Of a stretch of 64,000 nt of DNA, positions 19,580 to 39,299 are shown piece by piece (position 1 is the first letter of the stretch; every line of letters starts with the position of its first letter). Source of the DNA: Caulochytrium protostelioides (taxonomy: Eukaryota; Chytridiomycota; Caulochytriomycetes; Caulochytriales; Caulochytriaceae); contig ML014133.1 in the NCBI GenBank assembly GCA_003615045.1, positions 1-64,000 on the forward strand, written 5' to 3'. The position numbers and the translations under genes were made by a program. The notes under the pieces are model-generated. The model was given only the letters and a program-made list of their open reading frames with translations, did not search any database and was not told the origin of the DNA.

Positions 19580-20765
19580 TTAGGCCTTGACGGCCTGGGC
19601 CGCCTTGGTGAGGACGGCCTTGACGGTCTTAACCTGGAAACGCTGGAAGTCGTTCATGTTGCGGCGGAGCTTCTTCTTCTGGAGGAGCTGGGCGCGGTTG
19701 GTGGCCTCCCACTGCTCGTTGAGCTTCTGGGCAACGCAGGCCTTCTTGAGGGCAGCGGTGCGGATGTTGCGCGGGATGTTGAGCTTGATGTTGGTCAGGC
19801 GGACACGCTTGAAGTTGATCTCGCGGCGCGACACACCGGTGGTCGGGCCCTCAATCAGAGCGCGGTGCTGGTCAATGATCGCGACGATCGGAGCCACGTG
19901 GCCCTTGCCAGGGCCGTAGGTGATCTCGACCACACGGCCGACCTCGACGAATTTGGTGAACTAAGCAAGAAAAGGATATCATCAAATGCCAAGAGATGAA
20001 AGCAAGGGTGAGCTCATCAAGTTTACATTGCATTGAACGGTGCTTGGAATGGCACTCCATGCTGCTGCTGTTGCGATGTGTTGCTGCGATGTGATATTGC
20101 TGCTCCAGGTATGCACGCGGCACTAAGAACGATCAGAGCCGGCGGGGCGAATCTGATCATCGTGCCAGCGACCAAGCGAGCACAGAGAGCGCTAGCAGAG
20201 AGAGAACACAGAGCACGGGCTGCCGCTGAAGACACACAGCAGCGATCGCTGAAGCGGACGCCGTCTCTTGGCTCGTCTCTCGGAAAGATCAAGAGAAACG
20301 GTCTAGCAACGGCCGGATCGGCGGTTCAGACGTCACTCCATTTCTCGGAAATCGTGCAACGCAGCTTCCTGGAAAAACGGAACTGGATCCGCGGGCTCGA
20401 CGTCCGCCTCTGGCCCCGGGAACACGGTCTCTCCGCCCCGGTTCGGCCAGCCCGAGCGGTACGGGCAGAGCGGTCGCACGGCCGGCGGCGATCGGATCAA
20501 CGGGCCGTCTCCAGACAGAGCTCCCGCTGGCACTCGTCTTTCTCTCCTGACGATATACATCGACAGGACAGCCTAACGGTCGCCGAGCGCCTCGGTTCAT
20601 CGCCGGAGAGCGCGGCAGCCGGGGTTCGTCGTTTTTGGACAGCATGGCCGCCGTCTTGACGGGAGCGAGAGCGCTAGGGCCACGCAGGTCGCATCTAGTG
20701 ATAGCCTCAGCGGCAGCAACAGCAGAAGTTCATCGACGGGCCAGGTCTGGCCGGGCACATACCAT
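19580..20765 (-). CDS. RPL14: 60S ribosomal protein eL14 (2 exons, ATG-only exon 1)
   Basis: Exon 2 (19580-19960) codes FTKFVEVGRVVEITYGPGKG through to KAAQAVKA. It has the eL14 features: an N-terminal SH3-like KOW fold, IVAIIDQHRALIEGPTTGVSR, and a basic tail with the DFQRFQ motif. An acceptor TTAG ends at 19961. No ATG sits in frame in exon 2 before this core. The best exon 1 is the ATG alone at 20763-20765, directly followed by a GTATGT donor, giving an 802-nt intron and a 127-residue protein. The same design is seen in uL18 and eL29 here. eL14 is on the solvent side of the large subunit. It is divergent from uL18, with 750 bp between the start codons. Exon 1 is an inference; nearer ATGs lack a donor in the right phase. 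Confidence 0.9.
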
Positions 20766-20988
20766 TATGGTAGCGTTCTAAAGGGATGGGGTCCTGGAGG
20801 TGGGTGTTGGCGGTCGGCAAGGGATCCTATCGTCGGCATCTTCCGGCCTCGTCTCTTCCGGCTGCCGCGTCTCATACCCGGCGCCCGCTGGGTCCCATAC
20901 TCGTAAGCGAGTTTGATGCTCATGTAGGCCTGCCTTCAGACCCGAGCACCGGTAACTCGCTGTCTATGTCTCGTGGTATGTCGAGTGG

Positions 20989-21028
20989 GTGGATGGATGG
21001 ATGGATGGATGGATGGATGGATGGATGG
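20989..21028. repeat. GGAT tetranucleotide array
   Basis: About ten uninterrupted copies of GGAT. Together with the ATCC array 270 bp further on it forms an inverted pair. Confidence 0.9.
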
Positions 21029-21296
21029 GCGGGGACGCCGGTCGGACGGGCCGGCCAGCAGCGGGTCTCCTCGCCGGGAAGCGCACCCGCTGCGAGGGTA
21101 CGACAGACCAGCCCGCGCCACAGGAGGCCTCGCCCCTCGCAGACCGGATGGGCCTCGCCGCAGCCGGAGACGCGGCTTGGCCAGCGTGTTGGGCCTCGGG
21201 TACGGGGGCACTCGGGCCGGGCCCTCGGCTGCCCCCACCCCAACGCCCACGCCGACCCTTGCTCTGCCCCCGACCGGCCGCAATGCCGACGCCGAC

Positions 21297-21314
21297 CCAT
21301 CCATCCATCCATCC
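21297..21314. repeat. ATCC tetranucleotide array
   Basis: Four copies of CATC/ATCC, the reverse complement of the array at 20989-21028. Confidence 0.85.
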
Positions 21315-21515
21315 TCGCGGCCATGCTCACCACGCACAAAGGCATAGGAAACGTTGCTGATAACGGGTCAAAGCAGACAGATGGGCGGCATGGCATACTG
21401 ACGTAGAGCATACCCTAGGCACAGGTCGTCGTGCGAGAGCAGGGTCAAGAATCCCTCAGACCACCAACCCCCCGACCCCTCCTCCCCGACCTCGCCCCCG
21501 TAGAACTCTACCGCA

Positions 21516-22838
21516 ATGGTATGTGTCGTCCGCGTCGCTCCCAAACGGCATTCATTGGGCCGCCATGCATCCGGCCCGCGGCCTGTTCCGATGGGGCACG
21601 GCTTGTGAGCCTGGATAGCATCCCGATGGGCAACTGATGAACAACGAACTGTCATGCCAGACGAATCCTCCGCATAGCGGAGCTCTGGTTGTCGCGCTGT
21701 GCTCAGACGAATACCGCTGTCGAATCAGAGCTCTGCGCGTTTCGCGGCGTTCAAGGCGATCTTCCACGCCGGCTCGACGCGTCGACAGCCGTTGGCTGGC
21801 TTATTGACACCGTCCTCGCGCCGCTATGGCCCTCGGCGCCGTGATCGGCCGGAATCGAGAATTCACCGTGTCACTCACCTTTCTCGCGCCCTTCTCTTGT
21901 TCGTGTTGATGTGGGCTCAATTCGATGTTCTTCAGGCTTTCATCAAGCTCCAGAAGACCAAGGCGTACTTCAAGCGCTTCCAGACCAAGTTCCGTCGTCG
22001 CCGTGAGGGCAAGACGGACTACTACCAGCGCAAGCGTCTGGTGGCCCAGGCCAAGAACAAGTACGCCACCCCGAAGTACCGTCTGGTCGTTCGCATCACC
22101 AACAAGACCGTCATCTGCCAGATCGTCTCCTCCAAGATCGTCGGCGATGCCGTCCTCGCTGCTGCCTACTCCTCGGAGCTGCCCCGCTACGGCATCAAGT
22201 GCGGTCTGACCAACTGGGCCGCCGCCTACGCCACCGGTCTCCTGGTCGCCCGCCGCACGCTCAACAAGCTGAAGCTGGACACCGCCTACGCCGGCAACGA
22301 CGATGTCACCGGCGAGTACTACGCCGTCGAGGCCAACGAGGAGGGCCCCCGTCCCTTCCGCGCCTTCCTTGACATCGGTCTCCGCCGCGCGACCACCGGC
22401 CACCGCGTGTTCGGCTGCCTCAAGGGCGCCGTCGACGGCGGCCTCAACATTCCGTACTCCGAGAAGCGCTTCCCGGGCTGGGACGGCAAGGAGCTCGACG
22501 CTGAGCTCCTCCGCTCGTACATCTTCGGCGGTCACGTCCAGGAGTACATGGAGTACCTCCAGGAGGACGACGAGGACACTTTCCGCAAGCAGTTCTCGAC
22601 CTTCATTGCCGCCGGTGTCGAGCCGGACGCGCTCGAGGAGATCTACGAGAACGCCCACGAGGCCATCCGCGCCGACCCGGCCGCCAAGCCCTCGGCCCGC
22701 AAGCAGCTCACCGCCGAGCAGAAGCAGAAGCTCCGTGCCTACAAGTGCACCCGCCTCTCCCACGCCCAGCGCAAGGCCCGCATCCAGGCCAAGATCGCCA
22801 AGTTCAACAAGCGCACTGGTCTCGAGGGCGGTCTCTAA
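21516..22838 (+). CDS. RPL5: 60S ribosomal protein uL18 (2 exons, ATG-only exon 1)
   Basis: Exon 1 is the ATG alone at 21516-21518, immediately followed by a GTATGT donor. A 417-nt intron ends in GTTCTTCAG at 21935. Exon 2 (21936-22838) starts [20 protein letters not shown], so the spliced protein has 301 residues, the normal length for eukaryotic uL18. Hallmarks are [56 protein letters not shown], and the late eukaryote-specific part with [20 protein letters not shown] and the [11 protein letters not shown] motif. uL18 binds 5S rRNA with uL5 and is delivered to pre-60S particles by Rrs1-Rpf2. Codon use is strongly biased to C-ending codons, as expected for a highly expressed gene. Confidence 0.97.
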
Positions 22839-23785
22839 GTGCCTCGCCCTGGCTCTTGTTTTGCCGCTCGCGTCTCGCGGGCGCCGTCTGTCGCGCGCCG
22901 TCGTTTCTGCGGTGGTCTCGCAGCGGTGTCGGCCCTACTTTTGTCTTTCGTTTTCCCTGATGTCGTGATCGCTCTTTTGCTCGGGAAGGGGTCCGATCGA
23001 GCCCGCCTGGCGCGTTTCGAGCGTCGCTGCTCGCGACGGCCGGCGTGGCGCATTGGGAGGGGCATGTCCCTGTCTCACGGCCGCGACGCCGCGTTATCGG
23101 CCGGGACGGGGCATGGCATGCATTCGGGCATGGGTTCATTCGCTCATTGTTTATTATGCTCTAATTTTTAATGGTGGTGATATCCGTGCTTTCCTTTACT
23201 GATTGACTAAGTCATCGGCTAGTGTGAAGCAGGGTGGGAGGAGGCAGTGCGGAAGGAGCGAAGGCGGAAAGGAGTGGTCACTGATGTCGCGAGGGGGGCC
23301 CGGAACTGGCCAACCCGTGGCAAGAGCCATGCCAAAGTCGTGGCCCGTGCGTGACAATTTCATCAAGGGTGGATCGATGCCACGAGGATGCACGGCACGT
23401 CATTGAGGAGAACGTTGATCGTATCCTCATCCAGAGAGGCCTTGTACGGTGGCCGAGCTCGTCGCTTTAAAATAATCACCATCCCTACTACTCATTGGCC
23501 TTGCAGTGATCATCCTTGTCATCCGACGTTCTCATTCGGTTCTCCTTCGTCTCGACGTAAGTATAAATTAGAAAAAAAGCGGGGCGGTCAAGCAAAACAG
23601 CAGACATTCAAGAGGCGACGGCACCGGCCCCCCATGCGCCGCCAAGCAGAAAGAAGCTGCAGGCTCGGCTGGACGAGAACGATCGCCAGGGCAGAGGAGG
23701 CCCGCGAGCATCCAGGAAAAAAGCGACCACGTCAACATCATCGCTCTCATGTGGCCGCCATCGCCAGGAGCACGTCGCTAGCGCT
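22839..23785. other. Convergent 3' region, uL18 and mitoferrin
   Basis: About 950 bp between two stop codons. It includes an A/T-rich patch at 23140-23175 and another at 23560-23580, plausible 3' ends of the two transcripts. No coding signal is recognised. Confidence 0.45.
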
Positions 23786-24988
23786 CTAGGACGACAGGTG
23801 GGCCATGCGGCGGGACTCGGCGTCGCCGACCAACGGCGCCGAGGCCGAGGCGATGCCGGCGGCTTCCTTGACGGCGCGGACGGCGCCGCTGGCGCTGCCG
23901 TGACTTGATTGGCGGCTGGCGTGCACGGACGATAGCGACGGCGTCGGCGCGGCGGTGGCCGTCGAGGAGAGCGAGGCGGGCGTCGCGTGGGGCGCGTGGC
24001 CGACGCCGGCGGCGCTGAGGGACATTTTCATGAACTCGTAGGTGGTCCAACAGATAGCCGTGGAGGGCATGTGGCTGACGATGCGAGCGGAGATGCCGCG
24101 GGTGAGGCCGCGGACGCCGAAGCGGCGCCAGATAAGCCGGACGGCATCGCGCATGCCGCCGGCGGCGCGGACCTCGGCGTCGTGGGTCGAGCCGCGGGTC
24201 TGGAGCAGGGTCTTGCAGACATCGAGCGGCGTCGTGACGGCCGCAGCGACGGCGCCCGCGGCGGCGCCGGCCACGCAGTGCACGAGTGGGTTGTAGTGGC
24301 CCTCGCGGTTGAGCAAGGCGCGGACTTGCTCGTAGACCACAAACTGGAGCGACTGGAATGGGATGGTCATCATGATAGTCGTCGGGTAGGACACGTAGAA
24401 GGCGCCGATGCCCTCGCGGGCGAGGATATCGCGGGCGCACTGGGCGACGGAGGTATGCATCGAGCCGTGCATCTGCATGCGCTGCTTCACGACATCGAAG
24501 GGGTTCATGAGGCCGTCGTTGGCCATCGTAGCGAGGCCGCCCGAGACGGCGGTGCCCGCGACCGAGCGCAGGCCCTCGGCATGCTCGGCGCCCGTCGCTT
24601 TCTTCATGTACTCGTAGGTGGTAAAGTGGAGGGCGTGCGCGGGTCCGGCGCCGACGACGACGGAGGAGACGCCGCGCCACAGCGAGGCGATGCCCTCCGT
24701 GGACGCGACGCCGCGCCACGCGGTGCCGAGCGAGCCCGAGTAGAGGGCGCTCGATGCGGGCGTCGCGGCGATCATCTGCATGCGCGTTTTGATGGCGTCG
24801 ACGGGAAACATGAGCGCGTGCTCCGTGATGCCCGCGAGCCCGCCCGCGAGCGCGCTGACGCCCATGGAGGCCGCCGGCAGCGACTCATAGTCGATCTCGC
24901 CCTCTAGATTTGATGGCACGCTCGGTGGCGCAGCATGCAGCCGCGACGGGGAGGCCATCGACGGTGGCAACGGCGACGTGGTGGTCAT
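23786..24988 (-). CDS. MRS4: Mitoferrin, mitochondrial iron transporter (SLC25 family)
   Basis: A 400-residue inner-membrane carrier. Three mitochondrial carrier repeats are present, each with its PX[D/E]XX[K/R] signature: FPVDAIKTRMQ, NPFDVVKQRMQ and TPLDVCKTLLQTR. The GPAHALHFTTYEYMK stretch in repeat 1 and MNPFDVVKQRMQMHGS in repeat 2 are typical of mitoferrins (yeast Mrs3/Mrs4, animal SLC25A28/37), which import ferrous iron for haem and Fe-S synthesis. Compared with Mrs3/4 there is an extra Ser/Ala-rich C-terminal tail of about 80 residues and a Pro/Ser-rich N-terminus. The start is ATG 24988; an upstream GTG at 25003 was rejected. Single exon. Confidence 0.92.
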   Translation of the reverse strand: MTTTSPLPPSMASPSRLHAAPPSVPSNLEGEIDYESLPAASMGVSALAGGLAGITEHALMFPVDAIKTRMQMIAATPASSALYSGSLGTAWRGVASTEGIASLWRGVSSVVVGAGPAHALHFTTYEYMKKATGAEHAEGLRSVAGTAVSGGLATMANDGLMNPFDVVKQRMQMHGSMHTSVAQCARDILAREGIGAFYVSYPTTIMMTIPFQSLQFVVYEQVRALLNREGHYNPLVHCVAGAAAGAVAAAVTTPLDVCKTLLQTRGSTHDAEVRAAGGMRDAVRLIWRRFGVRGLTRGISARIVSHMPSTAICWTTYEFMKMSLSAAGVGHAPHATPASLSSTATAAPTPSLSSVHASRQSSHGSASGAVRAVKEAAGIASASAPLVGDAESRRMAHLSS

Positions 24989-25717
24989 TATGGCACGTAT
25001 CACAGGTGAGATCGAGCGGCGGTCGATGCCGGGTCAAGCCGGGATCGGGCGGGGCGGCGTGAACGGGTGCGCGGAGGGGTCGCCGTGTGAGGTCGTAGCG
25101 GACAAGGGCGACGGCAGGCGATCGATGACTCACGGGGCGAGTGAGTCGATGCGCGACGAGCGTCGTCGCCGTCGCGGATATCGGCAACAAGGAGGTCAGA
25201 GCAGAACGCCTTCCGGAAGCATGCACGGACCGAGGCAAAAAGACCGATGAAGAGGGGAGAACGGGAAAGTGAGGGCGGAGAGAGGAGAGAAAGGCACGGC
25301 GATAACGGATGGAAGAGGAGAACCCCACTGGGAAGGCTGAAGACAATGCACAAGACGAGGTATGCAGATAGCTGTGATTGTGAGCCGGCGATGACGACTC
25401 GGCTTCGCAGTCACTCCGATGCTTCTGCTGGCTCTACGGCGACGCGCTCGAGTAAACGGGGACCTAGCGAGCGAAGGCGCCGTGCGATGGCGGCCTGGCG
25501 ATGGTGCTGCCGCGGCCGTCAATGACACCGGATAGAGGGGCGAACGATGACCGAAAGTGATGCCGAAGATGGTAGGAGACAATGAAATGCCATAAACAAG
25601 GAACAGCTAGAAACTGAAAACCGGCAGATATGGAGCGAAGCAATTAACGCATGGAGCGTGGCCCGCGCTGAATCGGAGACGGAGATGAACCGCGCGTTGT
25701 GGTTACACTTGCTGCGT

Positions 25718-25720
<3 letters not shown>

Positions 25721-25755
<35 letters not shown>

Positions 25756-25788
25756 ACTGCTACTGCTGCTGCTACTGCTGCTGCTGCT
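25721..25788. repeat. CTG/CAG trinucleotide array
   Basis: About 22 triplets of CTG with a few CTA interruptions. It lies about 730 bp upstream of the mitoferrin start codon and in no convincing gene, so it is probably untranslated or intergenic. Confidence 0.9.
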
Positions 25789-26180
25789 CGGGACGAGTCT
25801 ACGCGGTGGATGCCAGGCGGTGATGCCACCCTTGGGCCGTGTTGTGCACGGCCGCGGCGAGACGATTAACGAGGTTCGTGCTGGTCAACGACGGGCCAAT
25901 GTCCGGTCAAAGCCCGGTCAATAGGGAGGTCAATAACCTAACGTGTTCAGCAGACGGACCGGCCGGATGCCGTGTCGCGCGTGGGCCAGGCGGGAGCGCA
26001 GGTGGGGACGGGCCGCCACGGGGCAGAAAGGGTAGGCGATGCAGGCAAAACGAGTGATGCAGGAGAGGGCGCGGGGCCGTGAGGCGTGCTTGGAAGGCGG
26101 TCAGGACACACTCCGACACGAGGCGAGCAGCGCAATGAAGCAAGCAGGAAGGGATGTCAATCGATCAAGCGGTATACTTC

Positions 26181-26208
26181 GAGAAAGAGAGAGAGAGAGA
26201 GAGAGAAG
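26181..26208. repeat. GA dinucleotide array
   Basis: About twelve GA repeats with one AA interruption near the left end. Confidence 0.9.
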
Positions 26209-28378
26209 TCTATGAATCGCTCTACTAGATATGTTGATGAGCCAGGCCGAAGCGGTGGTTTCTTGCGTAAGCCGATGGTCCTCAATCTCACATCTCGGAC
26301 GCACCCGTCTATCCCGCGATCCGAATCGCGGTATCCTTGGCAGCCCCACAACGACACCGCTACCGATATCAGGGGGATCATGAAGTGCTGGTGGATGTAG
26401 ACGGAGCGATGCAGCAGACGGGAGACCCCCTGCGACCACGGGTCCATCGGGCCTGGCCGGACGATGACGGGGATCCCACCGTGGGGTGCGGCCCGCGGAC
26501 TACCGAGCGCGGGCGTTGTCGCGTGGCTTTTCACGTCGTGCCGCGGCCGTCGCGGGTCCTGCTCGGGCCAGCCCGCCGTCTTATCGGCATTGCGAGACCC
26601 CTGTGCGTGTGTCGATGGCCGCTGGGGCGTGCCTTGCGCTTCTTGGCTGCGGCGACGCGAGAACAGCGGCGGCCGCGGCGGCTGCGGGAGGGGACCCTCC
26701 GTCGATCCCCGGCGTCTCCCGCTATCGCCGGGCCGCCGCACCCCGTCGATGCGGTCATTCGCACGGGCGTCGGAGTGTCGCATTCCCCGGCGCCGAGCTT
26801 CCGCTTCCGAGGGCCTCCGCGCCGCATGTCCTATTCAGGACTTTCCGAGGCCCGCGACGCCGTCCCGAAGGCAGGCGCGGTCGCGGCACCCCCCGCGGTC
26901 GCCAGCCGGGAAGCGAGCGCCCGGGGCAAGCCCGGGGGTTGCGCGCCTGTCCCGAAGAAAGGAAACAAACAAAAGAAAGGGCGCAGCAAGCGTGCGTCCA
27001 AGCACGCCCACGCCTTCGCCCGCCGCCGTGGTGGGCGCAGCGTCGGTGGGATCGACCGAGGCGGACGCGCGCTTTTTATACTTTTCGAACCCGCGACTCG
27101 GCGATCACCACAGCGCGCGCATCCCATGCATCAGGCGCTCAGAAGTCCGAGGGCGGCGATTCCGCGACGGCGGCGGATCCCGCATCGGGTCCAGCGCAGG
27201 GAGCCGCGATGGGACGGGCGGACGTCGGCACGTGAGCCGCCAGCGGGAACAGCGCGGCGTGCCGGCCTGGCACGTCTCGTGAATCCCGTGAGCCTCGTCC
27301 GTGGCGTGAGTCTCACGAGCCGTGAAAGTCCGCGGGTGCTTGGGGCTCGGGGTGCGACGGATCCCGGACCCCTGAGCCGGTTGCGATGGGTCGACCCCGT
27401 CCGCGGCGCGACACACGGAATCGCTCCTCCAACGGCTGGAGGAGGAGGTAGGTGGATCCGATCGTCTGCATGGGGTTGAGCACGGCGCCACCGTCGCGGT
27501 GACCGTGTCGTCTCGACGATGCGTGGCGAGGGACACGAGTCGCCACAGCAACCGCGCTTCCCATCCTTCTGGCCAGCGATCGGAGGCTTTGTCGAGGGAG
27601 AGCGCAGGCGCACATCAGTGGCCATCTGGGAAGCAACGCGGCCGCGAGGACACGTGATGGGCCTGATGCCGAGAAGGCGAGCCGCTTAGCTTGATAGGAG
27701 CCAGGACGGTGAGTCACGATCCTGACCCATGATGGCGACGCTGACGCGCCGCATCATCGACATTGGGCCTCGTCGGTGCTGGGCATAAAGGCCGAAGGCC
27801 AGATGAAGAATCGTCCCCGTACGTCTCTCATTCGTCGCAAATCGAAAACAATCGAAAGAAACGAAATGAGAGTGCAGAAGAAAATGAATCGACCAGATGT
27901 GGATGATGCTAATTCATGAGAACACCCCTGGCCGCTGTCGTGCGAGACGAGGCCCTACGCGTTTCAAAACGCCATCATTGCCAAGCCCCTGCCGTGGCGC
28001 AGCCTCATCATTGCCAAGCCCCGAATCCCCCGAGTCCCCGTCCAGTGGACGATGCACGGAGACCCAGCCAGGCCCCTTCGACTTCATCGACCCCTTTCGT
28101 CTCCAGCTGCACGAACCCTTCTGAGTGAAACCTACGTGATGTAAACTATACGCCGACCAAAGCAGCGTTTTCTGATGGAGGAGGAGGGGCCACAGCGTCA
28201 GCACCCCAGCCAGGGATCAAAAAGCACCCAGCGCGATGCTCTCAGCTTGCTTGCCGGATGCCCACCATGAGCCATGAGCATGAAAAGAGCGAACGACAAG
28301 ACGGACGCTTCGATGAGCACCGGGCACATCCGCGTCCGTGGTGCCCGAAGGACCCGAAGCGACGCGCGAGGCGCATCG

Positions 28379-30202
28379 CTAGAAGGGACCGAGCGCCGGC
28401 GCCAGGCCGCGTTTCATGGAGACGCGCTGGTCATTGAGCCGGTCGCAGCGACCGAGCAGATCCAGCATCGCATCCAGGTCGCCCAGGTCGCCGGGCGTCG
28501 TCGGCGAGGTCGCCACGCCCGGCGCCGCCGCGGACGCCGCGCACGGCCCCGCGTCCGCATCGGCCATCACAGGCGCCACCGGATCTACGACCGGCGCAAC
28601 CGATGACGCGTGGTGCGTGTTGTTGGAGCTGCGCATGCGCACGAGTTTCGCCATGCGGGAAGCCATACTGGTCCCGGTACTGGTACTCGTACTCGTGCTG
28701 ACACTCGTGCTGCTCCCGCTAGCGTGAGCCGCGGCGCTGCTCGGGGCGCTGAGCAAGGCCGCGGCGTGCGTGACCGCCGTCGCGGTGCTGCTGGCGGCGC
28801 TCGAGAAACTGGTCGTGCTGCCGCCGTGCGCGCCAGCGCCGCTGCTGTGGCTGAGGCCGGACGGCAGCACGACGCCGCCCTTCAGGAACCCGCTCGAGAC
28901 GACCGTCGTCGCGGTCGTCGCGAACGTCATGGCCGAGACGCCCGACGCCATCGACGCGGCGGCCGCCGTGAGCCCCGGCCAAGTCTGCGGATACGGGGGG
29001 TAGTGCGGGTAGCCGTGCGGCGGCGTGGCGCCCGCCTGCGACTTGAGGCCGCGGGTGGGCGAGGACGCGAGCGCGGCGGCGGCGTCGGCGTCAGCGGACG
29101 CGGGGCCCAGCGGCGGCGTCGGCAGGAAGGTCGGCGTGGCGGCGCCGGCGCCGGCGCCGGCGGCGGCGCCGGCCGGCGTCGTGCGCAGGAGAAAGGCGGC
29201 GGTGGTGGTGATCTCCGGCGGCGCGGGGGCGAGCGCGGGCATCGCGGAGGGCGAGTGGGCGGCCGGCGGCGGCGTGTAGCGCAGGTCGGACAGCGAGGGC
29301 CGGCGGGTCGAGCGCAGCAGCGGCGGCGGCGACGAGATGCCCGGCGCGAGCGCCGTGGGGCCGGCGGCGGCGGCGGGCGGCGGGTGGTGGTGGTAGTGGT
29401 GGTGCTGGCCGAGCTGCATGGCGGAGATGCCGCGGGTGAGGAGCGGCGCGAGCGGGCCGCTGTAGTGCGCGGTCGTCGTCACGTTGCGCTGGGCGGCGGC
29501 GGCGGCGCTCGGGCCGCTGGGCGGGAACACGACGCGACCGCGGCGTTGGGCGGCGCTCAGCGTGGACGCGGCTGACGCGGCGGAGGACGGCGACGCCGCC
29601 GAAGCGCCGCTGTTGCTGCTGCTGGCGGCGGCGGGTGAGGATGCGATGCCGGGCGTGGCCGCCGCTGCGGCGGCGGCTGTGCTCATGCCGGCCACCATGC
29701 CGGCATGCATGGGTGCCGAGGACGGCGCGGACGCGAGGGCGGCGACAGGCATGACGGGGCAAGCGAGGTACATGGCGACGGCATGCTCGATTTGGGCGAG
29801 CTCGGCCTGGAGCGGGGCGGGCAGCGCGCTGGGCGACGGCATGCCGGGGCTGAGCAGCGGGGGGGTCGGATCGCTGGTGAACGGCGACGCGGCGGTCCAT
29901 GCGGTCTCGAGGCTGGGTCGCCGCGAGGTGTCGGGGGTGGCGAGCGCGTGCTGCGAGCAGCACGACGCGGCGCAGAGGAACGAAGTGCCATGCTGCTGCT
30001 GTTGCTGCTGCTGTTGCTGCTGTTGCTGCTGCTGTTGCTGCTGTTGCTGCTGTGCGGCTATGGACTTCAAGGCGGCCTGGGCATAGAGGGAGGTGGCACC
30101 CGGCTGCCGAGCGTGCCGGTGGAGGAGGGTGGTGAACCCGGTGTAGGGCCGCTCGGCCGGGTAGGTGTTGAGGAGCAGCGCCTCACGCGATGCGACGGCC
30201 AT
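28379..30202 (-). CDS. Polyglutamine, low-complexity protein of unknown function
   Basis: 607 residues from ATG 30202 (context CACCATGG); the frame continues upstream only through a GTG at 30604. Residues 51-70 are a run of about 20 Gln coded by mixed CAG and CAA. Long Ala, Ser, Pro and Thr stretches follow, with a His-rich patch (QHHHYHHHP) and two RRPSL motifs that look like basophilic kinase sites (RRPSLETAW and RRPSLSDLRY). The last 35 residues are different: LDAMLDLLGRCDRLNDQRVS is helical and resembles the DQRV repeats of the UPF0662-like protein at 46 kb. No catalytic domain is visible. It may be a regulator or scaffold; function unknown. The reading frame is uninterrupted over 1.8 kb, which supports a real gene. 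Confidence 0.65.
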   Translation of the reverse strand: MAVASREALLLNTYPAERPYTGFTTLLHRHARQPGATSLYAQAALKSIAAQQQQQQQQQQQQQQQQQQQQHGTSFLCAASCCSQHALATPDTSRRPSLETAWTAASPFTSDPTPPLLSPGMPSPSALPAPLQAELAQIEHAVAMYLACPVMPVAALASAPSSAPMHAGMVAGMSTAAAAAAATPGIASSPAAASSSNSGASAASPSSAASAASTLSAAQRRGRVVFPPSGPSAAAAAQRNVTTTAHYSGPLAPLLTRGISAMQLGQHHHYHHHPPPAAAAGPTALAPGISSPPPLLRSTRRPSLSDLRYTPPPAAHSPSAMPALAPAPPEITTTAAFLLRTTPAGAAAGAGAGAATPTFLPTPPLGPASADADAAAALASSPTRGLKSQAGATPPHGYPHYPPYPQTWPGLTAAAASMASGVSAMTFATTATTVVSSGFLKGGVVLPSGLSHSSGAGAHGGSTTSFSSAASSTATAVTHAAALLSAPSSAAAHASGSSTSVSTSTSTSTGTSMASRMAKLVRMRSSNNTHHASSVAPVVDPVAPVMADADAGPCAASAAAPGVATSPTTPGDLGDLDAMLDLLGRCDRLNDQRVSMKRGLAPALGPF

Positions 30203-30894
30203 GGTGGTGGTCGCCTGACGCGGACGAACCTGGCTGGCCGTCGATGTCGCGTGCCCAGGGTAAACGCCGCTTGGCGACGCGGACACCTCGTCCGTCGTCC
30301 GAGCGGAGCACACGTGGGCGTGACGAGGCCTGAGGGGTCCGCGGTCGATGGCGATCGGCGCTTCTCGCCTGGGGGGGAGCTGTCGGGCCCAGCAGTGGCG
30401 GCGGTGGCCAAGGACGGCGCGGTCGCGGATGGGAACGCGCGGGCAGTCCACGGTTCGGAGACCAAGGCAGCGGGACGTGGAGCGACGGTAGCGACCGTGG
30501 GAGCTCTGGGCCGTGCTGCAGGATCGGGTGGGGAGGACGGCAATCTGCCACGAGAGTATGCGCGAAGTGACTCGGATGCCCGATGGCAGCTCCACGCGAC
30601 TCACCCGCTCACCGACAGCGAACGTCCGGTGCGCGGGCTTGCGGCGACGAGACGACGGACGGATCGATACGCCGTTCTACCCCACTGTTGGATGGGGCTG
30701 GCTTTGGGGACTGAGCGGCCCAGGCATGCGCAGATGGGCACGACCGCGTCACAGCCGTGGCGGATCGGCGGGAGGACGGGGAAGCGCCGGGGTGAGGCGC
30801 GCAATGATGCAAGGATGCAATGAATGCAAGTCGCCACAAGAATCGTGAAAAGGAAAGATCCGGTCATGTGAAGCGATGGGAGGCAAGATCCGAC

Positions 30895-31000
30895 GTGAAG
30901 TGATGTGAAGTGATGTGAAGTGATGTGAAGTGATGTGAAAGAGATGCGATGCGATGCGATGCAGTAGGAAGCGATGCGATGCCATGCCATGTGATGCGAT
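30895..31000. repeat. TGATGTGAAG decamer array followed by GATGC pentamer array
   Basis: Four to five perfect decamers at 30895-30939, then GATGC/GATGCC units to about 31000. Both have a period of 5 or 10. Confidence 0.85.
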
Positions 31001-31210
31001 GCGACGTGAGCCTCGACGGGCGAAGCGGGTCTGCAGCGGTCTGAAGGGGTTCAGCGGGCGAGCACGCGATGGCGGGAATGAGGGCGCCAGTGGCCCGTTT
31101 CTCCGCGGATCTCAAAGAACCTCGGCGCTGGTGGCGATGGATTGCCAAGCAGGCGCTGCGTGATGGCGTTCGGCCGAGCCCCTGAAGGTAGCGTAGTGTG
31201 ATGGCGGTGT

Positions 31211-31270
31211 GGATGGACGGACGGACGGACGGATGGATGAAGCGGGATGAAGCGGGATGAAGCGGGATGG
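31211..31270. repeat. GGAC array and GCGGGATGAA 10-mer array
   Basis: Four to five copies of GGAC/GGAT, then GCGGGATGAA repeated about three times with a fourth decayed copy. Confidence 0.85.
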
Positions 31271-31918
31271 CGGTGGAGATGACACCGCCTGGCGTGAGGG
31301 GCAGGGATGCGGTGGCGTGAATGTGATGATGGAGCACGGTATCGGAACGGCAGCGCACGGAAGAGGTGGTCGGCGTCGGTCTCCCCCCGACAACCCCAGG
31401 CGAGCGCCGCCCTCGCGACGACACCCGGCGGGCTCCTGATACGAGAGAGGGCGACCGAACGGCGGCGCCGAAGGGTCTCCGATGAACGCGGCGATGGCTG
31501 ACGGTGCGACGCGCGATGGTCCCGGGCGGATGGATCCGCCGCGGCGTCGGGCGGATCGGTTGGCGCCGAGGGCTGCGCGACCGAAGGCACATGGTCGTCG
31601 GCATGGACGTGGGACCAGGTGTTCCGAGGCGGCCCCGACCGTGACCGTGACCGGACCGCACGGGCGAGCCGGAGGCGCGCGTCCGACCGCCGTTCGCCAT
31701 GGACGCGATCGCCCCGCGAGCGCGGGAGGCGCGGCGGCGGCGGCGACGGCGGCGTCAGCGGGACGCCGTGGGGCACGTCCCGCCCAAGCGGCGGAAGGCG
31801 GCGCGAGGCCCGAGGCCGACCCGGCGAGCGGCTCCCGCACCCGGCAACGCGACGTTCGCGGGCGGACCACCGCCCATCCAGCCGCGCCTTCACGGCGGCC
31901 ACGGCGGGCACCCGCGAT

Positions 31919-31920
31919 CG

Positions 31921-31952
<32 letters not shown>

Positions 31953-31956
31953 AAGG
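31919..31956. repeat. GCC trinucleotide run
   Basis: About eleven GCC/CCG triplets ending in GCAAGG. A second, similar run at 32137 also ends in GCAAGG. Confidence 0.85.
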
Positions 31957-32131
31957 GCAGAAAGGCCGGCGCGCGGTTGATGGCGCTCGCGGGCGGCCGG
32001 CGCAAGGCCGTGCGGCGAGCCACAACCAGCGCGGCGGACAAAGGCGCCGTCGCCGGCCTCGGAGCGCCGGAGCCGGCGCGGCTCCGCCTCACCCGGCCAG
32101 CCCGTCGCCGGTCGATCGCGGCCGTCGGGGG

Positions 32132-32136
<5 letters not shown>

Positions 32137-32177
<41 letters not shown>

Positions 32178-32232
32178 AAGGCCTCGGCCCAAGGCCTCGG
32201 CCACGGCCACGGCCACGGCCACGGCCACGGCC
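32137..32232. repeat. GCC run followed by GGCCAC hexamer run
   Basis: About thirteen GCC triplets at 32137-32176, then five to six GGCCAC hexamers at 32199-32232. Confidence 0.85.
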
Positions 32233-33285
32233 AGCGGGCCACGGCATCGTGGGATCCACCCGCTTCCCGTCCGTGGCCTGCGCCTCGTCCTGGCCCTGGC
32301 TCTGGGCTTGGCCCCGATGCCGAGCCCTGACCCGGATGCCTGGCCCTGCGCAGATCGCGCGTTCGTGTGACCGCCGCGGCCTTCGCGGCGACGGGCGCGA
32401 CGAAGGCGGCAGGGCCCCCGAGACCGAGGGCACGCGCCGATCGTCGGCCAGTCGTGAGGGCGATCCCGCGCACGGGCGCCGGCGCGGGCACGGGCCGTCG
32501 CGTGGGCGTCCCGCTTCTCGTCGCGTGGCGGAACGGAAGGCGGTGGGGCGACCCGTGGCGGCCTCAGGCCATCCGGAAGCACCCCGGCCGTCGCGTCCGA
32601 AGGACGGCGCCTGGTGGGCCGAAGGACGACACGCTCGCGGGCAACGCTCCAGCGAGGGGGGCGGCGACGCCAGGCGGCGAGGGGCTCGAGAGGACCGGCG
32701 CGGGCGTGACCCGGGACCGGTGAGACCGGCGGGCGGGGGGTCGATGTCCACGGCGGCCCGCATCAAGCGTCCGGAGGCTCGAGGCGCCCCGTTGATACCG
32801 GGACGACCGGGACCGGCGCTCACTCGGGATGGGCGATGCGGGTCGGGCCGGCGAGGGCCACGCGAGCACGGCGGGCGCCGTCGACGGCGTGGGTCCAGAC
32901 AGCCATGCCGTGAGGCGATCGGCCACAGGGCGGAGGCACGTGGACGTGGTGGGATCCCTGGGAGCTGGCACCGGTCCGGCCGGCCGCAGGGCCGCGCCTC
33001 GTGGAAGACGGATCAGGCGGATCGTGCTCGTCGAATGCCACGGCCACACGCGATCGGCGTGGCTTAGACGACGGGGCCGTCGGATTGGGCTCGGTATCCC
33101 CTGATTCGGCGGCGCTTATGGTGCGCTCTTGTGCTAGGCGGCGCCTGATGGGGCGAGGCCAGGAGAGCCCTGGTTCGTGCCGCCCATACTGCGCTCGCGG
33201 AGCGCCCTTCTCCGCGACAGCCGCGCCAGGGAAGCCCGTGTGGCCGTCGTGGGAACCCCCCGGTGCCAAGCCGGCAAGCCACGGC

Positions 33286-33846
33286 ATGAACCGCAGGGAT
33301 CGGCCTCCGGAGATCCCCACGCCGGCGAAGAAGTATCACAGATCAACGCAACGGCTTCCTTCTCCCGATCAGGTTCACTCCAAGATGCGGAGAAAGTGCT
33401 CCTGTCCTCTGAAGAAGTTTGCCAACTACGGGTTGCCCACCGAGACGGGTCCTACTTGGTGTGCACTGTGTCCCGACAAGCCAGCAGAGGCAGAGACAAT
33501 CACCAGCCGCAGATGCCCCTGTGCAGCAAAGAAGTGTGCCAATGTCGGTTTGCCCGCCGATACGCAGCCCATTTGGTGTGCGCAGTGTCCGGACAGACGA
33601 CTAGAGCTGACCCAGGTTCTTGCCTTGGTATGCGGCGAGTGCAAGCTCTGCCTCGGTGACCTGACGGGAGCCGTCGCCGGCGGCCTGGGTCGCCGCGCCC
33701 CACGCGGAGCCGCCCATGACCTGGCTGAGTTCGGCCGTGTCGGGGTGGCCGAAGCTGAGCGGCACCAAGACCACACTGCGGTGGACCAGGTTGCTGAGCG
33801 CCGACATGATGGTCGTCTCGTGGTCGCCGTGCTGCGGTCGAAGTGA
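33286..33846 (+). CDS. Small protein with two EsV-1-7-like Cys-rich repeats
   Basis: An ORF with two tandem repeats of about 39 residues. Repeat 1 (from about 33391) reads KCSCPLKKFANYGLPTETGP then TWCALCPDK. Repeat 2 (from about 33508) reads RCPCAAKKCANVGLPADTQP then IWCAQCPDR. The pattern C-x-C-P-x2-KK-x-AN-x-GLP-x6-P-x-WCA-x-CPD matches, by memory, the EsV-1-7 repeat first named in an Ectocarpus virus and seen in brown algae and giant viruses; here the final His is Cys. Four cysteines per repeat could bind zinc. Candidate starts are ATG 33286 and ATG 33385; the latter sits just before repeat 1. The second repeat ends at 33600, exactly where the antisense WrbA remnant ends. The last 82 codons are simply its reverse strand, so the natural C-terminus may be lost. 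It may be a fragment or a degenerate gene. Confidence 0.45.
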   Translation: MNRRDRPPEIPTPAKKYHRSTQRLPSPDQVHSKMRRKCSCPLKKFANYGLPTETGPTWCALCPDKPAEAETITSRRCPCAAKKCANVGLPADTQPIWCAQCPDRRLELTQVLALVCGECKLCLGDLTGAVAGGLGRRAPRGAAHDLAEFGRVGVAEAERHQDHTAVDQVAERRHDGRLVVAVLRSK

Positions 33847-33953
33847 AGCAGCCTGCGTGCTTGCCCGCGAGCGCGCCCTTCGCCCAGAGCCCGCCGGTCT
33901 TGTCCCAGAATGGATTCAGCGGCGCGCACGGCCGGCCGTAAGGCGTGCCGATG
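33601..33953 (-). pseudogene. WrbA/flavodoxin-like NAD(P)H:quinone oxidoreductase remnant
   Basis: The C-terminal half of a WrbA/Pst2-type flavoprotein. Conserved blocks run IGTPYGRPCAPLNPFWDKTG, then GLWAKGALAGKHAGCFTST, then QHGDHETTIMSALSN, and finally GGSAWGAATQAAGDGSRQVT and LALAAYQGKNLGQL to a TAG. FTST and QHGDHETT are separated by one base near 33833, not by whole codons, so the frame is broken. Upstream, TTCCTCTTCAG at 33954 looks like an intron acceptor. However, no FMN-binding N-terminal half (glycine-rich P-loop, STYGH-like motif) is found on the minus strand up to RPN11. WrbA proteins reduce quinones with two electrons. Most likely a decayed 5'-truncated copy; an assembly error could mimic the frameshift. 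Confidence 0.75.
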
Positions 33954-34770
33954 CTGAAGAGGAAGCGACAAGGTCATGCCAGGTAGGGTCATGCGAGGCC
34001 CCCACCACAGCACACATCGCCAAGACATCTCGCGCGCTCGGCTGGGCGGCTTCAACGAAGGAGGTCTCGTCGTGCGATGGTGCGACAGCGCCTTGTGGCG
34101 TTGTGATGGGAGCCGCCGCGGACGATACCGCCCACGGACCGCGCTGATCCACGGAGCAATCTGCAGGCCGCTCGGTGGCGGCGCCGGGCTTTCCGGGAGG
34201 AGCGGGGGTGCTCGGCAGAAGCCACGCGCGGGGAGAACACGGGCTGTCCGGTCGCGGCAGCATGGACCTGCTGACGCCGGCGCGATCGTCCGCCCGCCCG
34301 CGCGTCCACATGCCTGCCTGTCGTGGGCGCCCCCACGTGGCTGCGCGGCGGACCCGGACCGGCCCCCAAGGACCAAGGGCATTCGGTGTGCCGATCAGGT
34401 TGGATACGAGCCAGCGATGCGGCGCCACTGCCAGCGCCGCACCGGCACGGCCGATGGACACCCACGGTCCTCGCGGGCCCCTCGCTGGACTTCCTCTCAA
34501 CGACGCGGGAGTGACTCCTTTCTTTCTGCAGATCCATTCGTCGAGCCCCTTCGGCCCAGAACACCGCGTCGGGCCCCCCGCCCCTCCGGATCGATAACAC
34601 AAAAGACAGCAGGTCGTATAGCAACAATAGAAAGCACAGGTACCGAGGGGCGGAAACGAAAGAGGGCACAGCGCTCGGGAGGCCACCCGGCCCCACGAGC
34701 ACAGCAGTCCAGCCATGCATCAACAGCTCGGGGTCACGGAGAAGGACGGCGGATTGCTTAGTTTATTTCG
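33954..34770. other. Intergenic, no gene recognised
   Basis: Overlapping minus-strand frames of up to 266 codons are open here but show no flavodoxin N-terminus or other family. The interval includes the expected upstream part of the WrbA remnant, which is absent, and the 3' end of RPN11. Confidence 0.45.
34762..34767 (-). terminator. AATAAA polyadenylation signal (RPN11)
   Basis: A minus-strand AATAAA starting four bases after the RPN11 stop codon. Close spacing is unusual but the hexamer is exact. Confidence 0.45.
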
Positions 34771-35941
34771 TTAGCCGAACGAGACCGAGTTGAGCATCGA
34801 GACCAGACATTGCACGATGTTGTCCTGCATCAGACGGTCGACGGAGGCCTCGAGGTGGCGCTTGGGGTCCTGCTTGCCGACGTGGCGCGTCGCGAGCTGG
34901 GCAGAGGTCAGGGTGGCTTCCTCGGCAACGCTCTTGCCGTACTGCTCGGCGAGGCTGCGCATCTTGGTGACGACGGCCTCGTTCTCGCGGGCGTGCACGT
35001 CGGCGGCGCCCATCGTCAGCCCGTGGGTCCATGTCGTCTTATGCAGGTTCAGCAGCATCTTCTGCTCGAGTTCATTCTTGCGGTATGCGATCGCAATGCT
35101 GTAGTAGTGGCGGTTGAGGCCGTGAATCAGCGACTGAATCGACGGCTTGTTCAGGTAGCCGATGTTCGACGTGGTCTGGCGCGGCTCCTGCCCGAGCATC
35201 AGGGTCTGCGGGTTGATCAAGCGGAACGCGTCGATCACCACCTTGCCCTTCACTGACTGGATCGGGTCGACGACGACGGCGACTGCTCGCGGGTGCAGCG
35301 CCTCAAAGCTCTGGATGTCACCCAAAGCCATCATCATGGGCACAACCAATCCCGTCGAATCGGAAGAAAAAAAAACATGATCATGTCATAGCGTGAGTGG
35401 AATCCCGTTCGCTGATGGCTGTTTCTACTTGGTGTATCGTGGTCTCCTTCAAACCCGATGACGACGATGACGAGGCCCGAGGACGCCAGGACGGGAGGTC
35501 CTCGGCATGGCCGCGGGCGACCTTTCCCAGAGTCGTTCACGTTACCTGTTGTGTGTTGATGTCCACGCTAGACAGCCAGCACCCGAAGCCCGGGTGCGAG
35601 TGGTACCAGCCGACGACCATTTCGGGGCGGCCGGTCTGTTTCAACATCTCGAGCATGTTGGTCTGGAAGACGGGGTCGACGGCCTCGACGCTGACGCCAG
35701 TGCCGCTCTGCGGCATCGCAAAGACATCGATCACGCGCACCGTGTAGTCGTCGATGATCTCGCCGAGCAGCAGGCCCATGACTTCCATGGGCACGCCGGC
35801 GCGGCCGTGCTTCAGCATCTTGAGCAGCGCCAGCGACGAGATCGTGACGGTCTCGGCGGTGTCGAGGGCGGGGGCATCGAGCCCGGCCTGCGGCAGGGAC
35901 ATGCCCGTGCCGGCGCCAAACAGCTGGCCCAGGCGGTCCAT
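34771..35941 (-). CDS. RPN11: 26S proteasome lid deubiquitinase Rpn11/PSMD14 (2 exons)
   Basis: Exon 1 is 35546-35941 and exon 2 is 34771-35310, joined across a 235-nt phase-0 intron with donor GTAACG and acceptor CATCCAG. The product has 311 residues, against 306-310 in yeast and human. The MPN+/JAMM zinc site is complete: [14 protein letters not shown] with His114, His116 and Asp127, and Glu53 in EVMGLLLGE. The C-terminal half carries [18 protein letters not shown] and [20 protein letters not shown], as in all Rpn11 proteins. Rpn11 sits over the proteasome pore with Rpn8 and cuts ubiquitin chains off substrates as they are translocated. The start ATG 35941 opens [15 protein letters not shown], the family N-terminus. 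Confidence 0.97.
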
Positions 35942-37680
35942 GGTGGCGGCGCGATCGCGTCTCTACCAGGGGCGGGAGCAGTCGCGAGAAGCGACGGCGG
36001 ATCGACACACGTGGTCGACGGTCCGAGCGGCGGCAGCGGAGGCGGCGCGCAGCAGTGGCGGGTGGATGCGTCGCGATCGAGCGGAGGCGGGCGCGAGCAC
36101 GGTGTCCGCAATTCTCGGGATCGGGGAGCAGCCGCAGCAGGGCGAGCAGCACGAATGGGGGGAGGTCGGGCACACGCGGCGCGAACGAGGGAAGCGGCCG
36201 AGGAAGCGGGCACCGGAGCGATGGGCGGGACGGGGGGAGACGGCGATGCAGCAGAGGCGGCGATGCCACGGACGCGCGATGCCACGGACACGGGACGAGC
36301 AGGCGCCGCACGCGAGGGACGCGAGGACGACGAGACGGCAAAGACCACCGCGACGGAGCGATGCGGCGGACGCGACGCGACGCAGAAAGAGAGCAACACG
36401 TGGCCCGGCGAGCGGTCGCGCGATGACACGCGACGCGGACGTCGGCGACGCGTGTGGGCTCGCCGGGTAGATCGCGCGCCAGCCGCGCCGGCGGCCTCGT
36501 CGCCCCCTTCTTGCGCTCTTGCGCCGGTGCCCCGCCAAGGAAGCGACCCCCCGAGGCGTAGCCCGGGAACGGGACCGCCCAGGACCCAGGCCAGCGGCGC
36601 GACGTGAGTGGCGCAGCGACGCGGGGACCCACGACGGCGCGGACCCTCTGCCGCGGCGAAGGTGCGGCGGCTCTGGGGCCATCGCCGCACGCCCTCCGCT
36701 TCGCGCCGTGCGCCGGCCGATCGTGGGATGGCGGAGGACGGATCGGCCGCGAGCAGCGCACAGCGGAGCTGTCACGATTCTGAAAGGCACCGAAGGATGT
36801 TCGACCCCGGGACGTTCGGCCTTCGGGCGGCCGGCGGGTGCGGCGATAAATCGTCGTTGGCGAGATCTCGATGTGAGATCGCCCGGTCGGATCATCAGGC
36901 GATACGTTGAGAATCCAGCCACCGCCACGATGTGATACGACCAGCATTGACGGCTGCCGTCTCTCGCCGTGATGGCTGTACTGTTGGCGGGGCTGACATC
37001 TGGTGGAAGTTTGGATCAGAGCGCTCCGTGAAGAGTCGTAAGACCGATCCTCAACTCCCGTTTTCATGGGATTCCGGACCATGAATTCCTTGTGTTGGTG
37101 GAGCTATTGGTGGTCTGGAAAAAAAACGGAGCGAGAAAGTTCTCTACTCCGTTGATTCGTGGCTTCGAACTCGCCGAGTTCCGAAACGGTTCGATCATCT
37201 TCGGGTCGATGCGCTCGATAGGTGTTTCAGCGCGGGACGCGCGCTGCTTGCGACCGAGGTTGCCATGATCGAAAGATGAGGGGGGCCGCTCTATGTTTTT
37301 TCGCGCTTTCGGTCGGCCGGGGGCGTGGAGTGCCTCCCCGGCGGCGTCCCCCTCTCTGGCTCGCCTTTGGCTGGCCGACCAGGTGCCTCCGCATGGGCCA
37401 TCCATCCATCCATCCATCCATCGCGGGGCGAGCCATCATCAGGAGCAGGCGCTCAGGATCCTCGGGACAGACGGGCTCATGAGGCAAGACGGCCTACGTA
37501 TTCGTACTTAGCAACGAGCTCGCGCATGGGCGTTGACCTCCGACGGTGGGGTATGACGAAGAGGCGCGCGGAGAGCATGGAGACCCGACGCATGGGAGGT
37601 ATGAATAGTGATGGTCTTCCTCCAGAACCACTGACCCTTGTTCCTTGACCGTCACCCCTGACCCCCTTCAATCTAGCACA
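35942..37680. promoter_or_regulatory. Divergent intergenic region RPN11 / eL29
   Basis: 1.7 kb between divergent start codons. The part near RPN11 (to about 36.7 kb) is so G+C-rich that several frames are open on both strands. The part near eL29 has an ATCC array at 37398-37422. No PACE-like proteasome element (GGTGGCAAA) was noticed by eye. Confidence 0.4.
37398..37422. repeat. ATCC tetranucleotide array
   Basis: Six copies of CCAT/ATCC, following a G+C-rich block that ends TGCCTCCGCATGGG. Confidence 0.9.
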
Positions 37681-38970
37681 ATGGTAAACTGACGACTCCG
37701 GTTCTACCTGTAACGGCACGGGCCTTGCCGGAAGAACCGATATTGCCAGAGACCGCCGTCAGCATGTCCGTCATCACCACGACTCCACCAGGACCTGGCC
37801 TGACCTGACCCGACCAAGACCCGACCCGCACGAGCCCAGACACCGGCCGCCTGGCCTGAAAAGCATCTGGGCGAAGCGCTGCGCACCCTGTCGACGCGGC
37901 TGCCCCGGGCGACGTCGTCGCCGTCCTGCCGACCGTCAGCGTCAACGCGGTATGGCCCTGTCGCTCGTTGCCTGCCGGTCGCCGACCTCTTAACACGCCT
38001 TGGTGCACGTGCCGCGTTGTCGGCATCGACCACGTGCCGGAGGGCCGGCGCGGCGCGGGGGCACATCCATGGGCGGCTGGTTCGCTCGAACGACCGCGCC
38101 CGTGGTATGCGCACGGATCGGTACCCGAGGCCGGTAGCGGGCGCGGCGACTGAGCTGCGGCGGGATCCGTGTCATCTGTCGACAGGCCACGTCGGTCACG
38201 CCGCTGTCGCGGCGTTGCCCCTGTTTCCGCAGCGGCGACGTGGCCGTTGGTGTCACCCACGACAGGATCGGTGGAAAGCAGCTGGCGTACTCAGCGCCCG
38301 TGTCGGCCCTGTGCCCGCGCAGTCGCTGTGTGTCGTTCGATCCGGAACAGGATCGTGGCCGCGCAATCCCCCGGGTCTGGTCTTTGGCGGGGATCTTTAG
38401 GTTCCAGGTCATGGTCTCGGCGGATCGTCACCCACTCAGGCTCTGCTCGCCGTGCGTGGCTGCTCGGGCGTGCAAGCAGCGACTCGTCGCGATTGATGCG
38501 TGATCTTATTGCTGTTGGCCGCAAGACAACGCATCTCGGCCGTGCTGTCGGTGATCATCGGCGCAGAATGCGCGGTGCTGAGCCTCGCCGGCGCCCACGA
38601 CGACCCTCGTCGTCGCCACGCGCACTCCGTTCAGGGATCTTTGCTGGTCGCCCGGCCTTGACGGCATTCATCGGATCGATGCAGGATTTGGCTTGCTGAA
38701 GCGTGTTCACTCACCGTTCATGATGTTTCCTTTTTTTCTTGCGATGGTATTCAGGCCAAGTCCAAGAACCACACCAACCACAACCAGATCCGTAAGGCTC
38801 ACCGCAACGGCATCAAGAAGCCCAAGTTCCTGGGCAAGATCTCGACCCGCGGTGTTGACCAGAAGATGCTCCGCAACCGCAAGTACGTGGTGGCCGGTAA
38901 CCTCAAGTGCCGTGAGGCACTCCGTGCCCAGCACAAGGCCGAGAACAAGGCCAAGGCCCAGACCGCTTAA
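37681..38970 (+). CDS. RPL29: 60S ribosomal protein eL29 (2 exons, ATG-only exon 1)
   Basis: Exon 2 (38755-38970) follows a pyrimidine tract and the acceptor TATTCAG. It codes AKSKNHTNHNQIRKAHRNGI and then KKPKFLGKISTRGVDQKMLR, the diagnostic eL29 sequence, ending AENKAKAQTA. As the family begins MAKSKNHT, only the initiator Met is missing. The best exon 1 is ATG 37681-37683, directly followed by GTAAAC, giving an intron of 1071 nt and a 72-residue protein. A competing ATG-GT pair at 38411 (GTCTCG) has a poorer donor. eL29 is a small basic protein on the surface of the 60S subunit. The intron carries no recognisable gene; no snoRNA with both C and D boxes was found by eye. Confidence 0.92.
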
Positions 38971-39026
38971 GTCGCTTGCGCTCGGCGCGATGGCGTCGTG
39001 CCGTCGTTTTGTTCTCGTGTAAAAGC

Positions 39027-39208: not shown

Positions 39209-39299
39209 ATGGGATGTGATGGGATGGAATGTGATGGGATGTGATGGGATGTGATGGGATGGGATGGGATGGGATGGGATGGGATGGGATGTGATGGGA
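39209..39299. repeat. GGGAT pentanucleotide array
   Basis: About 18 units of GGGAT and GTGAT. The centre (39257-39290) is nearly pure GGGAT and the edges alternate GGGAT with GTGAT. Confidence 0.9.

Follow-up and report, generated by a model that had tools for sequence, protein, structure and literature searches.

Animals, fungi and plants have phase 0 introns directly behind the start codon, described as 'start codon introns' by Nielsen and Wernersson 2006 (PMC1626468). Ribosomal protein (RP) genes are over-represented among them (16/55 in vertebrates, 4/45 in fungi), and the same paper gives, after Yoshihama et al., 20 of the 73 human RP genes as having such an intron. In mammals, Table 1 of Perry 2005 (PMC554972) assigns 22 RP genes to class E1e, in which exon 1 closes with the AUG, together with L29, which is classed as E1e//2, and the accessible text of PMC6679479 places a start-codon intron of Rps4 in several eukaryotic supergroups. 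Here we consider three RP genes (uL18, eL14 and eL29) with an ATG-only first coding exon in a 64,000-nucleotide (nt) stretch of DNA, referred to as the window, from contig C23 of the chytrid fungus Caulochytrium protostelioides (genome of 20.9 Mb in 337 contigs), together with a tandem (CCAT)n array lying upstream of RP genes. The ATG-only exons are the published start codon intron, a feature already known, whose phase 0 position directly after ATG, over-representation in RP genes and presence in fungi, animals and plants (PMC1626468, available portion) they share without any difference in kind; particular to Caulochytrium are intron lengths of several hundred nt to 1.5 kb and a gene set that matches mammals. 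We favour, with a probability of about 0.8, the joint reading that the RP start-codon introns are ancestral and that the (CCAT)n array, with a second short element, GTAT(A/G) (GTATR), is an RP promoter mark and the platform for an RP-dedicated factor.

The earlier note on this window had described ATG-only first coding exons in the three genes, introns of 417, 802 and about 1071 nt and second exons beginning at residue 2, all of which held up when donors were read, spliced products translated and Pfam families assigned. The uL18 ATG (21516..21518, forward strand) is followed by GTATGT, which opens a phase 0 GT...AG intron of 417 nt (21519..21935) with CTCAC ~60 nt upstream of its 3' splice site; exon 2 (21936..22838, residues 2–301 plus stop, M/AFIKLQK..., Pfam PF17144/PF14204) completes a full uL18, which shares 99% identity with a 184-residue C. 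protostelioides fragment (P0017). On the reverse strand, the eL14 ATG (20763..20765) is likewise followed by GTATGT and an 802-nt intron (19961..20762), whose donor and acceptor were read and which leads to exon 2 (19580..19960, M/FTKFVEVG..., PF01929). The eL29 ATG (37681..37683, forward strand) precedes GTAAAC and an intron of 1071 nt (37684..38754), also with donor and acceptor read, and exon 2 follows at 38755..38971 (M/AKSKNHTN..., PF01779).

Inspection of 11 RP acceptor sites revealed a branch-point-like CTCAC no more than 110 nt from the 3' splice site in all 11, compared with 117 of 1553 segments of 110 nt taken from the sequence read, which suggests that CTCAC is the branch consensus of this genome; in this count the script returned an overlapping motif for eL8 and uL24, where CTCAC is visible in the sequence, and the introns of eL27, P1 and P2 are predicted ones. 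These gene structures would be misread if exon 2 were spliced to a farther upstream exon or trans-spliced, leaving ATG/GT fortuitous, an idea to which the TAG standing just before the ATG of uL18 and eL14 (...TAGAACNCTACC..ATG) lends some colour. That TAG-ATG motif gives no signal across the genome (28 matches when two mismatches are allowed, vs 55 for a reversed control), all six genes read have ATG followed by GTA in phase 0 with exon 2 from residue 2, and the AUG has the same position in the mammalian orthologues, so that we attach hardly any weight to this explanation. The sequence of uL18 and eL14 through ATGGT also fits one pattern, AACNCTACCNNAATGGT, which we rejected as a shared signal around the two start codons on the same genome count of 28 against 55. 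Small RNAs hosted in the introns were likewise rejected as the cause of their length, Rfam returning 0 matches at gathering score within the window.

Extension to 16 cytosolic RP genes, those from outside the window collected non-randomly through the multi-member Pfam families PF01248, PF00467, PF00428 and PF00240, revealed ATG-only exons in seven (that of uL15, discussed below, being predicted) and other first exons in nine. The additional genes read are eL8 (loci L033 and L094; ATG/GTAAGC, intron of 1492 nt), eS4 (L036 and L095; ATG/GTAAAG, 1120 nt) and uS13 (L016; ATG/GTAAAG, 973 nt), the last met separately through a DNA pattern, and its entry is biased towards the ATG-only class because that pattern contains ATGGT. 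In uL18, eL14, eL29, eL8, eS4 and uS13 alike, the intron lies directly after ATG in phase 0, has GT-AG ends and places the AG at residue 2, and all six introns are long (417–1492 nt). Exclusion of the four window genes leaves three of 12 genes ATG-only, and exclusion of uS13 as well leaves two of 11. In eS12, P0, P1, P2, eL40, eS31, eL27, eL30 and uL24 the ATG exon holds further coding sequence: eS12 encodes its whole protein in one exon together with the ATG, eL30 has a 40-nt exon 1 and then an intron of ~940 nt, uL24 has a 16-nt exon 1 and then a phase 1 intron of ~1337 nt (both intron lengths hand-counted from sequence), and the ATG exon of eL27, P1 and P2 is preceded by an acceptor-like site.

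The earlier note had proposed the ATG-only exon as a rule for the RP genes of this genome, arising perhaps because long 5' introns boost or regulate expression, and had looked to RP genes with ordinary first exons as the sign against it. The proposal has three of three genes in its favour (four of four with uL15), can point to the length of the start-codon introns read, and agrees with the increase in reporter expression caused by introns right after the start codon in Yarrowia (PMC13309789, accessible text). With nine of the 16 examined genes lacking such an exon, the RP-wide rule fails, and the non-RP gene LSM2 (L070; ATG/GTAAGC, 220-nt intron, no CCAT array in the locus) has an ATG-only exon, on which ground we also rejected the ATG-only exon as a trait of RP genes only. 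We thus consider a rule of this kind very improbable. A weaker observation stands: many of the RP genes examined have an intron near the start codon. Possible further ATG-only exons, not settled, were noticed in the proteasome beta3 gene (PSMB3, L092, M/SIMEYNG?) and in SmF (L064, M/FAPTNPKPF?).

Comparison with the mammalian classes of Perry 2005 (Table 1) shows that the six read ATG-only genes all belong to E1e in mammals (uL18/L5, eL14/L14, eL8/L7a, eS4/S4, uS13/S18 and, partly, eL29/L29, classed as E1e//2), whereas none of the nine others does (L30, S12, L26, L27, P0, P1, P2, L40 and S27a). Across the 15 RP genes whose 5' coding end could be read, the Fisher test gives 2.0e-4, and 8.7e-5 when uL15/L27a is included. 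Of the nine others, P1 is of mammalian class E1 and the remaining eight are of class E2; eL27 and P2 look E2-like in the chytrid as well. Because the same minority of RP genes has start-codon introns in mammals, the simplest reading of the sequence comparison is that these introns were probably inherited from the opisthokont ancestor, rather than being an invention or rule of the Caulochytrium genome. A rival reading is parallel gain in the fungus and in mammals, with ATG/G favouring insertion and 5' introns being tolerated in RP genes; an ATG followed by G does resemble a proto-splice site, and the available part of PMC6679479 holds that repeated gain is non-refutable for Rps4. A gene-by-gene match of six of six against zero of nine is unexpected under parallel gain unless a gene-specific bias is strong, and we judge it quite improbable compared with inheritance. 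The chytrid–mammal match speaks for an RP gene architecture that is deeply conserved.

A fourth case in the window, overlooked in the earlier note, lies at 63363–63365 (ATG/GTAACC, forward strand) and is preceded by a (CCAT)n array at a distance of 214 nt. An RP gene start was predicted at 63363 before the search with PF00828 (uL15, mammalian L27a), a match being predicted 0.3–1.6 kb downstream of one of twelve sites that included 63363, and such a match was found on the same strand at C23:64424-64624, past the window end and ~1.06 kb downstream of the 63363 ATG. We accordingly assign 63363..63365 as the predicted ATG-only first coding exon of uL15 (RPL27A), with a predicted start-codon intron from 63366 to the window end at 64000 and beyond, on the strength of the donor GTAACC and the downstream uL15 match; the donor was read, and the acceptor would fall at residue 2. 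One array of the window, together with its ATG/GTA, led in this way to a uL15 gene that has its coding exon beyond the window end. The other of the two genome matches of PF00828, on contig C305, is weak and under the cut-off (E 0.007).

Arrays were counted from a length of 18 bp upwards where (CCAT)n ran sense to the gene, and by this measure they precede 14 of 16 RP genes and none of 14 non-RP genes (Fisher test, 8.3e-7). The strict control comprised 14 non-RP genes with the ATG in a found exon and 1179–1494 nt of upstream sequence read, including polyubiquitin, proteasome and Sm genes; the remaining control genes, whose 5' ends were not identified, were excluded from this count, and 20 UQ_con places were not used. 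Among the 52 control loci (167,591 bases in all, with some overlap), only that of SmG (L065) has an array of 14 bp or more, and this is uL24's own array. One LSM locus (L073) carries GGATGGATGG, which at 10 bp is shorter than the counted length. In ten genes (uL18, eL14, eL29, uL15, eL8, eS4, uS13, eL30, uL24 and eS12) the array stands 201–284 nt before the ATG, ending 244 nt before it in uL24, and its orientation is sense in 14 of 14 cases, with lengths of 18–38 bp. Within the window, the arrays lie at 21297..21314 on the forward strand (201 nt before the uL18 ATG), at 20991..21028 on the reverse strand and hence sense to eL14 (225 nt before its ATG), at 37398..37419 on the forward strand (261 nt before the eL29 ATG) and at 63123..63148 on the forward strand (upstream of uL15). 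All four window arrays precede RP genes, three of them being the genes of the original finding, and the independent cases (uL15 and uS13) agree in two of two. The neighbours uL18 and eL14 are divergent, with 750 nt from ATG to ATG and an array for each.

Over the whole genome, an 18-mer of the array has 226 matches in 20.9 Mb and the same letters reversed, a single control repeat, have none. The first 100 of these matches comprise 43 arrays, which scales to an estimated total of ~97, close to the number of RP genes (mammals have 79 different RP proteins, according to the consulted part of PMC554972). The pattern of an array followed after 201–261 nt by ATGGTA occurs at 17 distinct sites, against a chance expectation of ~0.6 by hand arithmetic from base composition; this compares with the 22 E1e genes plus L29 of mammals. 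Six of the 17 are identified as RP genes, the other 11 lying at C6:211934-, C15:80569-, C30:2561-, C34:49423-, C50:82280+, C52:83113-, C59:96022+, C64:10740-, C79:74106+, C169:17772+ and C232:21066+ (strand as sign), and eL29, an 18th known case whose 261-nt gap sits at the pattern edge, is missed. The arrays might instead be neutral microsatellites that persist, without any role, in the open promoter chromatin of highly active genes, as their simple tetranucleotide unit, a copy number differing between genes (18–38 bp) and the large share of arrays not yet tied to genes would allow. Neutrality does not readily account for one orientation in all 14 cases, for the narrow distance range in the ten genes that need no intron in the 5' untranslated region (UTR), for the absence of arrays from all 14 control genes, polyubiquitin, proteasome and Sm genes among them, or for the enrichment of a second promoter word, and we regard it as rather unlikely.

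This second word, GTATR, was counted between array and start on either strand, the palindrome GTATAC counting twice and P1, P2 and eL27 being represented by the 260 nt after the array. Thirteen promoters (3169 nt) contain 37 sites, compared with 6.7 +/- 2.5 after shuffling, and none of 1000 dinucleotide shuffles reaches 37. In a ranking of all 5-mers, CATAC/GTATG, AGTAT and GTATA take the first to third places, and control promoters (260 nt upstream of 14 genes) hold 10 GTATR in 3640 nt. The P0 promoter, which lay outside the derivation set, contains the element. In the window, GTATR occurs twice in the uL18 promoter (21394..21413, on the reverse strand, reading CATAC on the forward strand), twice in that of eL29 (37551-37555 and 37599-37603, forward strand) and once in that of uL15 (63229..63233, forward strand). 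A single long word common to the promoters was rejected, 8-mers not exceeding the shuffled maxima and 9-mers exceeding them by one. A C/T-rich stretch ahead of the ATG is visible in several RP promoters. Over the whole window, ATGGTATGT has 2 occurrences compared with 0.11 expected, and a 91-bp (ATGGG)n tandem array (39209-39299) lies ~240 nt downstream of eL29.

Several observations weigh against reading the introns as ancestral and the array with GTATR as an RP promoter mark. The sample covers 16 of ~80 cytosolic RP genes, and the gene models rest on sequence, from which the splice junctions and the position of the transcription start site are deduced. The genes eL30 and uL24 depart from mammalian E2 in that their exon 1 is short and coding and carries the ATG, and eL18, an E1e gene hoped for as a second find with PF00828, is absent from the two genome matches of that family. 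The P0 array (C48:11734-11759) lies 807 nt before the ATG and those of P1, P2 and eL27 lie ~1.1, ~1.2 and ~1.4 kb before it, and these distances of 0.8–1.4 kb therefore require an unseen 5' UTR intron. Array length varies in the 18–38 bp range as it does in neutral microsatellites, and of the 43 arrays counted in the first 100 of 226 matches, 33 are without an assigned gene. The GTATR word was seen by eye in the same data prior to testing. Finally, the ubiquitin fusions eL40 and eS31 have neither an array in ~1.5 kb upstream nor GTATR, and the only array among the matches listed for the contig of eL40 (C30) is some 95 kb off; since both elements are lacking in the stretch read, these two genes may stand outside the RP regulon.

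Taken together, the array looks like a promoter of the RP regulon, a presumptive shared on-switch. In the mechanism we propose, a transcription factor dedicated to RP genes would bind cooperatively to the CCAT array, its multi-site platform, GTATR would serve as a second, helping site, and activated transcription would start within tens of bases of the ATG. In E1e-type genes, exon 1 would then consist of the 5' UTR plus the AUG, with the first intron right after the AUG, and splicing in vivo would connect the AUG to codon 2, the intron parting the promoter and leader module from the coding sequence; an intron so close to the start codon may in addition increase output, as in the Yarrowia reporters (PMC13309789, accessible text). 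A more far-reaching version, in which the regulon is run by fixed-orientation, near-fixed-position (CCAT)n with downstream GTATR through a dedicated factor unlike known fungal RP regulators, and in which nearly all of the ~97 arrays mark RP genes, is in our view an even bet. If true, a microsatellite-like tract would serve as the address tag for an entire regulon, tunable by copy-number slippage, and with the array as a guide, DNA sequence alone could suffice to locate RP genes.

The (CCAT)n array is likely a new RP promoter element. A literature search on RP promoters combined with chytrids, CCATCCATCC and tetranucleotide repeats upstream of RP genes, in which subscription papers were mostly uncovered, returned no report of such an array among the papers listed, judged mainly by title, and the word 'chytrid' is absent from the available text of PMC6173580, a work on RP cis-element evolution in which RP promoter elements are described as often gained and lost within fungi. 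A tetranucleotide array shared among the RP promoters of an early-branching fungus would bring a new solution to RP promoter evolution. The nearest functional analogue is HomolE (ACCCTACCCT), a box in the RP promoters of fission yeast; it is likewise a C-rich tandem repeat upstream of the gene and, according to the consulted part of PMC10253590, an upstream activating sequence bound by Fhl1. HomolE is 10 bp long, occurs in both orientations and stands beside HomolD, whereas the Caulochytrium array is 18–38 bp long and has one orientation (HomolD was not looked for), and we claim no HomolE membership for the array because its unit is CCAT, not ACCCT. The LTSM of human RP genes, as described in the accessible portion of PMC3262029, is similar in being a tandem ATC-containing motif of fixed orientation and position; it differs in lying ~62 bp downstream of the transcription start site, mostly in intron 1, with two ATC flanks and a 7-bp spacer, whereas the Caulochytrium array lies upstream. 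With mammalian RP genes more broadly (Perry 2005, PMC554972), the chytrid genes share a coding sequence set apart from promoter and leader, and the two differ in the promoter itself, where GABP, Sp1 and YY1 sites in mammals contrast with (CCAT)n arrays and GTATR in Caulochytrium.

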